DNA of 37,376 bases from Phycisphaeraceae bacterium (lineage in GTDB: Bacteria; Planctomycetota; Phycisphaerae; Phycisphaerales; Zrk34), in the NCBI GenBank assembly GCA_028282805.1, contig JANQHD010000013.1, positions 1 through 37,376 on the forward strand. Direction: 5' to 3'. Both the position numbers and the translations under genes were made by a program. How positions within the stretch are numbered: the stretch's first letter is position 1; each line of letters begins with the position of its first letter. The notes beneath the pieces were generated by a model. It ran no database searches. It was not told the origin of the DNA and saw nothing but the letters and a program-made list of their open reading frames with translations. Below are positions 1,059 to 37,376 of this stretch, piece after piece.

Positions 1059-2300
1059 CTACAGCAGCTCGCCCGTGATCGTGTCGGCGACCAACAGCCC
1101 GCGGCGGGTCAGCTTCAAATGTGTGTCGGTGTACGTGAGCAATCCCCGTTCAACGAATCGCTCGACCACCCGCGTGCGCCGCGGGTCGACGTGGTCGCCG
1201 ACCCACCGCAGCGGCACGCCCTCGCGCAAACGCAAACGCATCATCAACTGTTCGCCGACCGACGCGGCCGGGTCGAGCTGTTCGATATCAACGATCGGCG
1301 CACCACCGGTTGACGCGAGGTATTTACCCAAGTGCGGCACGTTCTTCCATCGCACCCCGCCCACGTGCCCCGAGGCGCTCGGCCCCAGCGCCAGCCAGTC
1401 GCCGTTGGTCCAGTACACCAGGTTGTGTCGGCAGCGGTAAATGGCAGCCACCGAGCCATCCGCCTCCAAGCCACCGAGAACGGCGGACGCTTCATCCTTC
1501 TCGATGGCTGGTTGGCTTGATGGCTCGGTGGCTGTTGCCGCAAAGTTACTCACCTCGTAATGCTCGAAACCCACACCGGTCAGCGTGTCGATCGTGCACT
1601 CGAACATCGCCGCTTCGAGTTCATCGTCGGTGCGTTCGATCTGCCCGAGTTCGAGCTTCTTCGTCATCGCCGTGTTCGGCTCGTAGGTCAACGCGTAGCA
1701 CGACAGGTGCGTCGGCCCCAGCGACAGAGCGGCGTCCAGGTCGGCCCGCCACTCGTCGAGCGTTTGCCCGGGCACGCCGAATATCAGGTCGAGGTTGATG
1801 TTGTCGATCCCCACGGCCTGGGCGCGCTCGACCGCCCGCGCCACGTTGACCGGGTCGTGCCACCGTTCAAGCGTTTTCAAATGGCGGGCATCGAACGACT
1901 GTGCGCCGAATGAAACACGGTTCACGCCGCCCGCCGCCAGCGTTTCCATCAGCGCCGCGCCACTCGGCTCGGCGACCGTTTCCGGGTTGGCCTCCACGGT
2001 GAACTCGCAACCCGGTGCGATTTGAAATGCTTGTTTCAACTCATTTAATAGCGATCGCCAGAGGTCCGCCGCCAACAGCGTGGGCGTGCCGCCGCCGACG
2101 AATATCGTCGCGACCCGGCCGGTCGTGTGCGGCGAGAGGGCACGGATTTCCTCGATCAGCCGTGCCGTGAACGCGCCTTGCCGGTCCCGGTCGTCGACGA
2201 TCGAATAAAAGTCGCAGTAGTGGCATTTGTGGAAACAGAACGGCACGTGCAGATACAATGAGCAGGTCGACGCCGGGGCGAGCCGGCGCAACAAATCCAC
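1059..2300 (-). CDS. hemW: HemW-like radical SAM haem chaperone
   Basis: Radical SAM protein of the coproporphyrinogen oxidase-like family; HemW homologues bind haem and deliver it to respiratory enzymes rather than oxidising coproporphyrinogen. The [4Fe-4S] motif is CFHKCHYC (CxxxCxxC) close to the N-terminus, followed by 'IFVGGGTPTLL', 'EANPETV', 'RVSFGAQSF' and 'DLIFGVPGQT', then the HemW-type 'CRHNLVYW' and C-terminal 'LGPSASGH'. About 34 residues rich in A, E and S are inserted between the conserved SNFA and CRHN blocks; they are encoded by the palindromic octamer repeat at 1443-1537. The frame is open upstream to 2579, but that runs into the FHA gene. I place the start at a GTG (2300), which gives 413 residues, or about 379 without the insert, the normal size. 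ATG at 2384 is the alternative. Confidence 0.9.
   Translation of the reverse strand: MDLLRRLAPASTCSLYLHVPFCFHKCHYCDFYSIVDDRDRQGAFTARLIEEIRALSPHTTGRVATIFVGGGTPTLLAADLWRSLLNELKQAFQIAPGCEFTVEANPETVAEPSGAALMETLAAGGVNRVSFGAQSFDARHLKTLERWHDPVNVARAVERAQAVGIDNINLDLIFGVPGQTLDEWRADLDAALSLGPTHLSCYALTYEPNTAMTKKLELGQIERTDDELEAAMFECTIDTLTGVGFEHYEVSNFAATATEPSSQPAIEKDEASAVLGGLEADGSVAAIYRCRHNLVYWTNGDWLALGPSASGHVGGVRWKNVPHLGKYLASTGGAPIVDIEQLDPAASVGEQLMMRLRLREGVPLRWVGDHVDPRRTRVVERFVERGLLTYTDTHLKLTRRGLLVADTITGELL
1443..1537. repeat. inverted octamer array inside hemW
   Basis: Two arms of about 40 bases face each other around a short core. The outer 16 bases match perfectly: CAGCCACCGAGCCATC at 1445-1460 and its reverse complement at 1519-1534. 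Further in, both arms go on as imperfect copies of an 8-base unit (consensus NAGCCAYC on the plus strand), one unit of the left arm being 7 bases, and both end in GAGAA. The whole element is translated in frame as part of HemW. Confidence 0.75.
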
Positions 2301-2315
2301 GCTGTCGGACGCGGT

Positions 2316-2344
2316 TTGAACCTCCGCTCCGCCACCGTTACACT
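2316..2344 (+). promoter_or_regulatory. probable promoter of the FHA gene
   Basis: TTGAAC (2316-2321), 17-base spacer, TACACT (2339-2344), which puts the start near 2351 and leaves a leader of about 32 bases before the ATG at 2383. Both boxes match consensus at 4 of 6 positions. Inferred from sequence only. Confidence 0.4.
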
Positions 2345-2365
2345 GCCCACGAATTGGCTTTTTAA
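2337..2365 (-). promoter_or_regulatory. probable promoter of hemW
   Basis: On the minus strand, TTAAAA (2365-2360), 17-base spacer, TGTAAC (2342-2337). Its -10 box overlaps the -10 box of the plus-strand promoter. A start near 2330 fits the GTG start of hemW at 2300 and argues against the upstream ATG at 2384. Confidence 0.35.
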
Positions 2366-2382
2366 CGTCCAAGGGTGGCCTC

Positions 2383-12427: not shown

Positions 12428-12476
12428 CTCGAGCCTCGAGCCTCGAGCCTCGAGCCTCAAGCCTCAAGCCTCAAGA
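12428..12476. repeat. heptamer tandem array
   Basis: Seven units of 7 bases: four CTCGAGC, two CTCAAGC, one CTCAAGA, with a decayed CTCACAC behind. The change from CTCGAGC to CTCAAGC is shared by adjacent units, which points to local duplication. Confidence 0.85.
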
Positions 12477-12485
12477 CTCACACCT

Positions 12486-12511
12486 CCGGCAGCAGGCATG
12501 CTGCCGGCTAT
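12486..12511. repeat. REP-like single hairpin, copy C
   Basis: CCGGCAGCA-GGCA-TGCTGCCGG followed by CTAT. It matches the second hairpin of copies A and B except for three bases; two of these are a paired C-G to G-C swap across the stem, so the structure is conserved. Confidence 0.7.
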
Positions 12512-18813: not shown

Positions 18814-21540
18814 ATGCACGAACACCTGCGAGACCGACTGCTGCGATGGTGGGCCGAGCTGGTCTGCGATCGGCCGGTCGCGCTGCTGGTTATTTCATTG
18901 CTCGTCGCTGCGGCGGGCGTATACCTTGCGGTCACGCGCCTCGGCTTCCAGCCCGACCGCAACGCGCTGATCAGCGCCGAGCTCGACTGGAACGCGCGCT
19001 ACATCGAGTACCGCAAGCAGTTCGCACACGACGGTTTGACCGCGGTAGTCGCCGTGCCCAAGGGCGACGACGGCGCCCGACGCGCCGAGGCCTACGCCGA
19101 TGCGCTCGGCCGGCGCCTCGAGCAAGCCGAGTACGTCCGCCGGGTCGTGTGGCGCGTCGACATCGACCGGCCCACGCCCGCGATCCGCATGCTGCCGGCC
19201 GAGCGGTTCGAGCCGGTCGTCGCGGCGATCGAACAGATGCGCCCCGTGTTTGAGTCGCCCAACGTCGCCCGCCTGCTCGCCGCTACGCCCGACATGCTCA
19301 AAGCCAACGCCGATACGCCCCCCGATGGTTTGGCGACGCGCATCGGCCAGTTCGCGCAGTTCGTCGAAACCATTGAGGCGGCGCTCGACGGCGAAACCGC
19401 CGAACAGCTGCGACAGCGTTTGACGCGCGCCGCGGCCGCGCCGCCGTTCTACCTCACCGGGGGCGGCGGGGCGTACTTGTTCGTGCAGATCGAACCGCGC
19501 AAGGTCGACGACCAGCTCGAACCCGTGCAGCCCGCCGTCGACGAGGTCCGCGCCGTCATGGCCGAGCTCGCCGAGGCGCAGCCCGACATCGAGGCGGGTT
19601 TGACGGGCGTGCCGGTGATCGAAGCCGACGAAACCGTCGTCACCGAGCGCGACGCGACGCGGGCGTCGATCCTCGCGGTGGTGCTGATCGCGATCATGCT
19701 GATCGTGGCGTTCCACTCGTGGCCCAAGCCGCTGATGGCCGTCGCCGCGCTGCTCGTGGGCATCGCCTGGTCGTTCGGCTACCTCACGCTCGCCATCGGC
19801 CACCTGCAACTGCTCAGCGTCGTGTTCACGGTGATCCTGCTGGGCCTGGGCATCGACTTCGGCATCCACATCATCAGCCGGTTCGAGATGGTGCGCCACG
19901 AGCACCCGCCGGGCGTGCCGGGTTTCCGCGAAACGATGGTCGACACGCTGCGCGTGATGGGCCCGGGCATCGCCACCGGCGCGCTGACCACGGCCGTGGC
20001 GTTCAGCACCACCCTGTTCACCGACTTCGAGGGCATGGCGGAGATGGGCCACATCGCCGGCGCGGGCATCGTGCTCTGCCTCATCGCCATGTTCACGGTG
20101 CTGCCGGTGCTGATGCGCTTGTTCCGCCCGCGCCGCCGGCACGTCAAACCGATGCACGAGCGCAACGTGCACCTCTACCAGCACCACTGGTGGCAGCCTT
20201 TCTTCTCGCGGCCGTGGCGCACGATCGGCGGGGCGCTGCTGCTGACCGTCGTCGGCGGGTACTTTGCGCTGGGCATCCGCTACGACTACAACCTCTCGAA
20301 CCTGCTGCCGCGCGACATCGAGTCGGTGCGGTGGTTCAACCGCATCGCCACCGGCGGTGGGCAGGGCGGCAACGGCGGCTCGTCGGTGTGGTTTGGGGCG
20401 TCGGTCGTCAAAGACGGCGACCTCGAAACCGTCAAGCTCCGCGCCCAACAGTTCCGTGCTTTGCCCACGGTGGCCCAAGTCGGCGGCGCGGGCTGGCTGG
20501 TGCCGGCCGACGACGCGGCTAAACGCCAACGCCTCGCCGACGCCCGCGCCGTCGTCGGCCCATCGGCCGATGCCAACGCCGAACTGCCCGACCAACCCGC
20601 CACTCGTATCGAGTTTGTTGCCGCGATGACCGAACTAGCCAACAAGTTTGGTGAAAACACGATCACCACCAGCGATGAACTCGGCCCCGGGGCCGCACAA
20701 CAAATCGCTCGTGTTCGCGGGGCGTTTGCGCGGCTCAGCGGTCGGCTGCTCACCGACGACGGCGCACAAACCAACGCACGCCTGGCCGTGTTGCACGAGG
20801 CGTTCGTCGCGTGGCGCAGCGAGTTGCACACCGCGACCGCACGCACGCTGGGCGACGGCGACATGCGGCCCGACGACCTGCCCGAGGTGGTGCGACGCAT
20901 CGCCGTGGGGCGCGACGGGCGGGGCTTGATGATCCAGGTGTTCCCCAAGGGCAATGTGTACGACCCGACCGAGCTCGAGCCGTTCATCGAACAGTTGCAG
21001 CGCGTCGACCCGCAAGTCACGGGCACGGCCGTGCAGATCTACCGGTCGAGCGCGCTGATGGTCGGCAGCTACATCAAGGCGGGCGCCTTCGCGCTGGTCG
21101 CGGTGTTCTTGCTGGTGCTGCTCGATTTCCAAAAGCCGTTCGATGCGCTGCTGTGCCTGGTGCCCGTGGCCATGGCGTTCGTCATGCTGCTCGGCGTGCT
21201 CGCGGCGTTCGACATGCCCATCAACCCCGCGAACATCATCGTGCTGCCGCTGCTGTTCGGCATCGGCGTCGACTGCGGCGTGCACATCATGCACCGCTAC
21301 CGCGTCGCGCCCGACGAACACCCGCCCGGCTTAGCGGCGGGCACCGGCAAGGCGATCTGGCTCACCTCCCTGACCAGCAGCATCGGCTTCTCGTCGCTCA
21401 TGATCGCCAGCCACCGCGGCATCGCCTCGCTCGGCTTCACCCTCGCGCTCGGCCTCGGCCTGACCGTGCTGATCTGCATGACCGTGATGCCGTCGATCCT
21501 CGAGCTGCGCAGCCGGCGGCGTGAAGCGGTGAATCAGTGA
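18814..21540 (+). CDS. RND/MMPL-family membrane exporter, HpnN-like
   Basis: A 908-residue inner-membrane transporter with two repeated halves. Each has one N-terminal membrane helix (first at about 24-42, 'VALLVISLLVAAAGVYLAV'), a large periplasmic domain, and a block of five or six helices. The proton-relay style helices read 'GLGIDFGIHIISRF' (around 346) and 'FGIGVDCGVHIMHRYR' (around 815), each with the conserved Asp. This plan, without a partner membrane-fusion protein, is that of the MMPL/HpnN branch that moves lipids such as hopanoids; no hopanoid genes are in the window, so the cargo is open. The C-terminus (...REAVNQ) and stop codon fall inside the inverted octamer array. Confidence 0.87.
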   Translation: MHEHLRDRLLRWWAELVCDRPVALLVISLLVAAAGVYLAVTRLGFQPDRNALISAELDWNARYIEYRKQFAHDGLTAVVAVPKGDDGARRAEAYADALGRRLEQAEYVRRVVWRVDIDRPTPAIRMLPAERFEPVVAAIEQMRPVFESPNVARLLAATPDMLKANADTPPDGLATRIGQFAQFVETIEAALDGETAEQLRQRLTRAAAAPPFYLTGGGGAYLFVQIEPRKVDDQLEPVQPAVDEVRAVMAELAEAQPDIEAGLTGVPVIEADETVVTERDATRASILAVVLIAIMLIVAFHSWPKPLMAVAALLVGIAWSFGYLTLAIGHLQLLSVVFTVILLGLGIDFGIHIISRFEMVRHEHPPGVPGFRETMVDTLRVMGPGIATGALTTAVAFSTTLFTDFEGMAEMGHIAGAGIVLCLIAMFTVLPVLMRLFRPRRRHVKPMHERNVHLYQHHWWQPFFSRPWRTIGGALLLTVVGGYFALGIRYDYNLSNLLPRDIESVRWFNRIATGGGQGGNGGSSVWFGASVVKDGDLETVKLRAQQFRALPTVAQVGGAGWLVPADDAAKRQRLADARAVVGPSADANAELPDQPATRIEFVAAMTELANKFGENTITTSDELGPGAAQQIARVRGAFARLSGRLLTDDGAQTNARLAVLHEAFVAWRSELHTATARTLGDGDMRPDDLPEVVRRIAVGRDGRGLMIQVFPKGNVYDPTELEPFIEQLQRVDPQVTGTAVQIYRSSALMVGSYIKAGAFALVAVFLLVLLDFQKPFDALLCLVPVAMAFVMLLGVLAAFDMPINPANIIVLPLLFGIGVDCGVHIMHRYRVAPDEHPPGLAAGTGKAIWLTSLTSSIGFSSLMIASHRGIASLGFTLALGLGLTVLICMTVMPSILELRSRRREAVNQ

Positions 21541-21657
21541 ATTGGTCGATCAGTCAATCAGTCAATCAGCTAAACGACGAGGCCCGCTTCAGCGGGCCGG
21601 GTTGGCCGAATACAATCTAATTGACCAGTTGACCGATTAACCAATTCACCGATTCAC
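21529..21657. repeat. inverted octamer array between convergent genes
   Basis: Left arm (21529-21568) is five tandem octamers beginning GTGAATCA, GTGAATTG. Right arm (21618-21657), read on the other strand, is five octamers beginning GTGAATCG, GTGAATTG. The arms match at 32 of 40 positions and face each other around a 49-base core holding a GC hairpin. The last codons and the stops of both flanking genes (V-N-Q-stop and V-N-R-stop) are read from the outermost units. Confidence 0.8.
21581..21598. terminator. hairpin at the centre of the octamer array
   Basis: GGCCCGC-TTCA-GCGGGCC, a perfect 7-base stem. It sits between two convergent genes and can serve both directions; no T-tract is present. 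Confidence 0.6.
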
Positions 21658-22164
21658 CTTGCTTCTTTTCTTCTCGCGCCGGCGTTTGCGGAAAAACCTT
21701 TTCAACACCCGCCCGCTCTCGCCTGCACACACGCCCGCGGTCACGTCGACGCGGTGGTTGAGGCGCTGGTCGTTGCACAGCTCGAACAGCGTGTGCACGG
21801 CCCCGGCCTTCGGGTCGGCCGCGCCGTACACCAGTCGCCCGAGGCGCGCGTTGACGATCGCCCCAGCGCACATCGGGCACGGCTCGAGCGTCACGTACAG
21901 CGTGCAATCGTTCAGCCGCCACTCGCCCAGCGCGTCGGTGGCCTGTTGGATGGCCCCGATCTCCGCGTGGCCGAGCGGGTCGTTGCGGTTCTCGCGCGTG
22001 TTGCGCCCGACGCCGACGCGTTGGCCGTGGCGATACAGCACGGCCCCGACGGGCACCTCGCCCTCGGCCGCGGCGCGCCGGGCCAGCGCCAGCGCCTCGC
22101 GCATGCGGCGCTCGTCGAGCGACGGGGTGCCGCGCATCCGCGTGTTGCGCCGACGCCGCAACAT
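21646..22164 (-). CDS. tadA: tRNA adenosine(34) deaminase
   Basis: Deaminates A34 to inosine in the tRNA-Arg anticodon. Zinc and catalytic motifs are intact: HAE at 66-68 ('GHAEIGAI') and PCxxC at 95-99 ('EPCPMCAGA'). 'GEVPVGAVL' and 'NDPLGHAE' are family signatures. 172 residues from the ATG at 22164; ATG 22137 (MRGTPSLDERR) is equally possible and nearer the usual N-terminus, while the longer open frame overlaps tatC. The C-terminus is very basic (KRFFRKRRREKKRSK) and ends V-N-R inside the octamer array. It follows tatC by about 19 bases, so they probably share an mRNA. Confidence 0.92.
   Translation of the reverse strand: MLRRRRNTRMRGTPSLDERRMREALALARRAAAEGEVPVGAVLYRHGQRVGVGRNTRENRNDPLGHAEIGAIQQATDALGEWRLNDCTLYVTLEPCPMCAGAIVNARLGRLVYGAADPKAGAVHTLFELCNDQRLNHRVDVTAGVCAGESGRVLKRFFRKRRREKKRSKVNR

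Positions 22165-35441: not shown

Positions 35442-37376
<1,935 letters not shown>

Follow-up and report, generated by a model that had tools for sequence, protein, structure and literature searches.

The hemW gene of this Phycisphaeraceae bacterium is interrupted by 90 nt of octamers, CCAHCNAG, arranged as an inverted array. We consider this array, with a probability of roughly two in three, to be a miniature S23-type element that lacks an ORF and was probably mobilised in trans. The window analyzed (37,376 nt) is the entire contig C51 of a 3.9 Mb genome that is 99.8% complete, and the features of interest are listed in Table 1. Read on the minus strand, which is that of hemW, the element runs CAG CCACCGAG CCATCAAG CCAACCAG CCATCGAG / AAGGATGAAGCGTCCGCCGTT / CTCGGTGG CTTGGAGG CGGATGG CTCGGTGG CTG, while arm 2 reads CTCGATGG CTGGTTGG CTTGATGG CTCGGTGG CTG on the forward strand. 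An earlier note on this DNA had described two facing octamer arms with a perfect outer match of 16 bases. Both are present, with 21 nt between the arms and perfect pairing of positions 1445–1460 with 1519–1534; the inverted array itself is real, and only its size, put at 95 nt in that note, is reduced to 90 nt. Tandem Repeats Finder independently reported a period of 8 at 1500–1533. The folding that had been proposed as a check gave −41.6 kcal/mol for the DNA of the element strand (z −7.5; none of 200 shuffles was as good) and a long stem with a z of −7.8 for the RNA, both far beyond chance.

Table 1. Features of the window related to word arrays and their host gene
Feature	Position	Strand	Remarks
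hemW (radical SAM family heme chaperone HemW)	1059..2378	-	TIGR00539, 265 bits, above cut-off; position of start codon provisional
Whole inverted octamer-array element	1445..1534	none	Borders CAG...CTG; TAG...CTA in most other copies
Arm 1	1445..1478	+	CAG + CCACCGAG CCATC-CG CCTCCAAG CCACCGAG; one base missing from one unit
Spacer, 21 nt	1479..1499	none	AACGGCGGACGCTTCATCCTT; reverse complement like the spacers of other copies (AAG-ATGRAGCGCCCGCATT)
Arm 2	1500..1534	-	Minus-strand reading CAG + CCACCGAG CCATCAAG CCAACCAG CCATCGAG
One-sided heptamer array, CTCAAGC/CTCGAGC	12428..12486	+	Word GGCTTGA, as in the arms of S23 gene G000:C27:6808-7119
Second mini, other family	21528..21658	none	5 octamers of GGTCAATC type / 51-nt spacer / 5 inverted octamers

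The product of the host gene contains the domains Radical_SAM and HemN_C, and the element interrupts it in frame between SNFA and CRHN. Most relatives lack the insert, as shown by the comparison of HemW proteins that the earlier note had suggested: the stretch from YE[IV]SN..A to HN comprises 16 residues in most of them and 46 here. When exactly 90 nt are removed, the flanks join as VSNFAATIYRCRHN (VSNFA-ATIYR-CRHN) and the loop assumes the standard length of 16 residues; the element is thus cleanly inserted and adds 30 residues, fewer than the 34 given before, with the frame kept as had been claimed. This evidence for an empty site is the length of the HemW loop and not a nucleotide alignment, the single same-genus genome being distant and incomplete. 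Just past the 3′ end of hemW, at 77–945, transposase-like ORFs are divided between two minus-strand frames and appear IS5-like by eye.

In 66 parsed HemW loops, a set that is not random in that genomes with long inserts were examined by preference, arrays with a period of 7 or 8 are inserted in frame in nine genomes of five genera, namely the source genome (G000), G029 and G060 (one genus, different words), G045, G046, and the congeneric G072, G108, G123, and G159. Comparable periodicity occurs in only 0.2–1.5% of random stretches of the same length as the inserts. The G029 insert and an S23 gene of that genome (L276) have the word CGGGTNC in common, and the word of the G060 insert, ACAGTGA, is also that of L261, an S23 gene from its genus. 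HemW offers a natural series in which different words are inserted in frame at one loop. In three genomes (L192, L195, and L334 in G007, G005, and G078), this loop also carries, in frame, REP-type palindromes or hairpins whose sequences are unrelated. The variety of inserts indicates that the loop is tolerant, and as it takes REP-type palindromes too, recurrent insertion there need not mirror any property of the word-array elements.

The hemW element belongs to a dispersed family. BLAST returned 66 places for it in its own genome, and exact double octamers (CCAHCRAGCCAHCRAG) occur 50 times, compared with 4 times for a reversed control. By inspection, the octamer word was found at 28 loci on 15 contigs, 27 of them without an ORF, and the earlier proposal that the insert is palindromic, in frame, built of octamers, and distinct from the palindromic elements of Rickettsia is supported. 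Neither outcome that the earlier note had named as refuting it was observed, since most HemW relatives lack the insert and the same array type recurs in the genome. A typical copy measures 85–95 nt and has TAG...CTA borders and a spacer of 13–25 nt, often similar to AACGATGRAGCGCCCGCATT; the border is TAG or CAG and the base before it varies. Four words per arm are present in 28 of 36 arms. Among 143 units, octamer positions 1, 2, 3, 5, 7, and 8 are fixed at 93–99%, while C, T, or A occurs at position 4 and any base at position 6. No covariation between arms was detected at the variable positions, where mirrored units agree no more than shuffled ones; perfect pairing is therefore not maintained. 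According to crude gene calls, most copies are intergenic or overlap gene ends. Candidate in-frame half-arrays were noted by eye, from the sequence only, in two other genes, at C7:58653 and in an argininosuccinate-lyase-like gene at C5:61144. A possible target-site duplication (TTGAA) was seen at C50:121219 only, with no consistent duplication among the copies. Two copies, C50:14030 (L078) and C52:107835 (L075), have about 100 bp of common flank and carry 4 and 7 octamers, respectively, indicating that the number of units shifts after duplication. At four composite loci, L069 (C40:18789), L071 (C50:80705), L070 (C47:178564), and L072 (C41:20974), an octamer arm faces a heptamer arm (CCANNAG/GCANNAG), and in two of these the arms are nested within TTTAGCCGCGACCC palindromes.

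One locus of the family contains a gene. At C31:45671-46188 (L077/L226), between atpH and atpA, the octamer arms enclose a gene for a 126-residue protein that belongs to PF05635/TIGR02436 (S23 or 23S-rRNA-IVP), a four helix bundle. The protein is related to PDB entries 2gsc and 2rld, both of which contain five chains. PF05635 resembles the DGR protein Avd, and the 2GSC structure is an assembly of five four-helix bundles (PMC10053308), while other members of PF05635 are encoded by intervening sequences of 23S rRNA (PMC4990558). The one PF00078 gene of the genome, a possible reverse transcriptase partner in an Avd-like reading, is not near octamers. In the sister genus (G008), the same atp site holds an S23 gene 67% identical to this one. 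Its arms are made of the same word as those of the source genome, here CCATCAAG/GCATCGAG, and this word also builds at least nine minis, that is, copies without an ORF, in G008. The other S23 genes of the source genome are, by eye, mostly bracketed in the same manner, each by its own word (GGCTTGA, GGTCAATC, CCGGARTC, ATTGGTGA, and GGGTTCCG).

These words allowed a prediction to be tested: if every S23 word is accompanied by its minis, the word of a further S23 gene should likewise be scattered over the genome. The word GGTYAAYC, taken from the S23 gene L228 (C23), was found in 62 tandem pairs in the genome, compared with none for the control; facing pairs 30–100 nt apart occur at about ten loci, and several copies have a common spacer of 40 nt, CGAGGCCCGCTTCAGCGGGCC...GAATACAATCT. 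The second mini of the window (Table 1) shares its word with the S23 gene G000:C23:22307-22621, has no ORF, folds with a z of −6.6 and has a conserved spacer that includes a hairpin. Two S23 words were tested for minis in the source genome, and an ORF-less family was obtained for each. The link between the octamer minis and S23 genes is strongly supported.

The association was also observed outside the source genome. An arm score, obtained by aligning the left flank of each S23 gene to the reverse complement of its right flank, had a median of 39 for 69 S23 genes of the source genome and its relatives and of 18 for 1397 random control pairs. Forty-five of the 69 genes exceeded the 99th percentile of the control (P 9e-21, only a guide as the S23 genes are not phylogenetically independent), and 24 were without clear arms by this score. 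The arm period in the 45 genes is 7 in 30 cases and 8 in 14. S23 genes between inverted word arrays were identified on plasmids as well, in Nostoc, Calothrix, Geminocystis, Picosynechococcus, Anabaena, Azospirillum, and Gemmatirosa (15 S23 genes against 80 control CDS, P 2e-5); two plasmid genes, L314 and L317, show no clear arms. Three of the cyanobacterial plasmid S23 genes with word arrays (L306, L309, and L312) are located amid CRISPR-Cas operon genes (cas10/cmr3 and cas6/cas4). Short tandem words occur also without S23.

It has to be considered whether the arrays arise and grow where they stand, by replication slippage and template switching, with S23 genes merely settling in the resulting hairpins much as IVSs do in 23S rRNA hairpins; the hemW array would then be a local palindrome. 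The shift from 4 to 7 units between the two flank-sharing copies fits such growth, as do the homogeneous octamer arrays of many unrelated bacteria. However, local growth would yield neither a single genome-wide word nor its match to an S23 word, and it sits poorly with the one word, TAG...CTA borders and similar spacers at 28 loci of one genome, with the 40-nt spacer common to the GGTCAATC copies, and with a same-genus genome free of any copies. We regard this explanation as unlikely.

The distribution among relatives bears on a second alternative. Of 301 genomes of the order, 6 contain the inverted octamer form, and the control gave none. Beyond the source genome, the carriers are G008, which belongs to another genus of the same family, and four genomes of another family; the octamer element is absent from the distant and incomplete same-genus genome and from most of the family. 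Copies related to the hemW element were detected in the Phycisphaeraceae isolate SJ399 (L151), which makes Phycisphaerales the most likely order. A scan of a wider contig collection for octamers gave mainly homogeneous direct arrays in unrelated taxa, and only L151 resembled the hemW element. If the arrays were kept by selection as sites to which a regulatory or chromosome-structuring protein of the host binds, with S23 as that protein or a bystander, the fixation of six of eight positions at 93–99% with two left free would be as in protein-binding repeats, and the location of most copies between genes or at their ends would be readily understood. So patchy a distribution argues against this, and insertion into the coding sequence of hemW, with two candidate half-arrays in other genes, is unexpected of selected sites, making the explanation improbable. 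Least probable of all is a REP/BIME-type element moved by the host Y1 (RAYT) transposase: four to five PF01797 genes are present, the borders contain TAG, and some composite loci combine octamer arrays with TTTAGC..GCTAAA palindromes, but the arms are word arrays and not a single GTAG-tagged hairpin, and this candidate was rejected as the mover because none of the five PF01797 places has an octamer pair within 1.5 kb, although two of them have TTTAGC palindromes nearby.

Compared with known systems, the hemW element resembles Rickettsia palindromic elements (RPEs), MITEs, and 23S IVSs and fits none of them fully. RPEs are likewise short palindromic repeats located in frame in protein genes; by description they differ in their length of about 150 bp, in belonging to another phylum, and in that neither an octamer build nor an S23-bearing copy is described (PMC10969869). 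MITEs share with the octamer minis a size of 50–500 bp, terminal inverted repeats, multiple copies, the lack of an ORF, presumed help in trans, and a parent copy with an ORF (PMC10969869). In contrast to a MITE parent, the gene-bearing copy of the octamer family encodes a four-helix-bundle PF05635 protein and not a transposase, and a pattern search of the whole genome revealed no MITE-type parent with a transposase and matching termini. REP, REPIN, and BIME sequences with RAYT are, like the octamer family, short dispersed palindromes with TAG at the border (PMC3733652), whereas the octamer family has no single GTAG hairpin and is unlinked to the Y1 transposase genes of the genome. The 23S rRNA IVS with an S23p ORF, known from Leptospira, Coxiella, and others and suggested to be selfish (PMC4990558), resembles the S23-bearing copy here in that a PF05635 ORF is flanked by terminal inverted repeats. 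Unlike that IVS, the octamer family lies outside rRNA, as in hemW, has arms of 7- to 8-nt words and many ORF-less copies per genome, and is inserted in frame in a protein gene. The 23S rRNA gene of the window (35443–37376) is cut by the contig end and spans model positions 1–2004 in 1934 nt; the part present thus contains no IVS. Cyanobacterial STRR are heptanucleotide repeats of a kind similar to the TAACTGA repeats of Beggiatoaceae and cyanobacteria. Like the word arrays here, the latter are tandem, dispersed, and lineage-specific, with an unexplained origin; they are described as direct, and S23 genes between inverted arrays are not reported there (PMC4679880). A literature search, in which few subscription papers were covered, did not turn up any account of S23 genes flanked by word arrays of their own.

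We infer that the octamer elements are selfish and spread by copying. As an S23-type miniature, the hemW insert would have been carried in trans, with the S23-bearing copy serving as the autonomous or helper copy. An S23 oligomer, possibly a ring of five bundles as in its relative 2GSC, could recognise the repeated word as a DNA hairpin or as RNA, in which case the fixed bases CCA.C.AG may represent contacts and positions 4 and 6 free linkers. Ring proteins such as TRAP bind spaced RNA triplets, and by analogy there is perhaps one word per subunit of the S23 ring. The insert in hemW may survive because the loop is tolerant, no stop codon lies in frame, and the length is a multiple of three.

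More broadly, it seems to us an even call that these elements form a class of selfish DNA that is widespread in bacteria and has no recognised recombinase. Such an element would consist of an Avd-like S23/IVP gene flanked by inverted arrays of a 7- to 8-nt word of its own, would have minis lacking an ORF that are spread in trans, and would occur in at least Planctomycetota, Cyanobacteriota, Pseudomonadota, and Gemmatimonadota. Proteins of the S23/IVP family (PF05635) are common, and we know of no established function for them; to our knowledge no recombinase or nuclease activity has been attributed to S23 proteins. Nor do we know of an established origin for the dispersed 7- to 8-nt tandem repeats of bacteria. 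The present data join the two subjects, as each S23 gene has its own word and the tested words are dispersed in the same genome as ORF-less hairpins, and some word-array hairpins enter protein genes in frame. If such a class exists, the long-known dispersed heptamer and octamer repeats would be explained and the S23/IVP family would be given a role, and S23 function and the origin of the repeats would become testable with one set of experiments.
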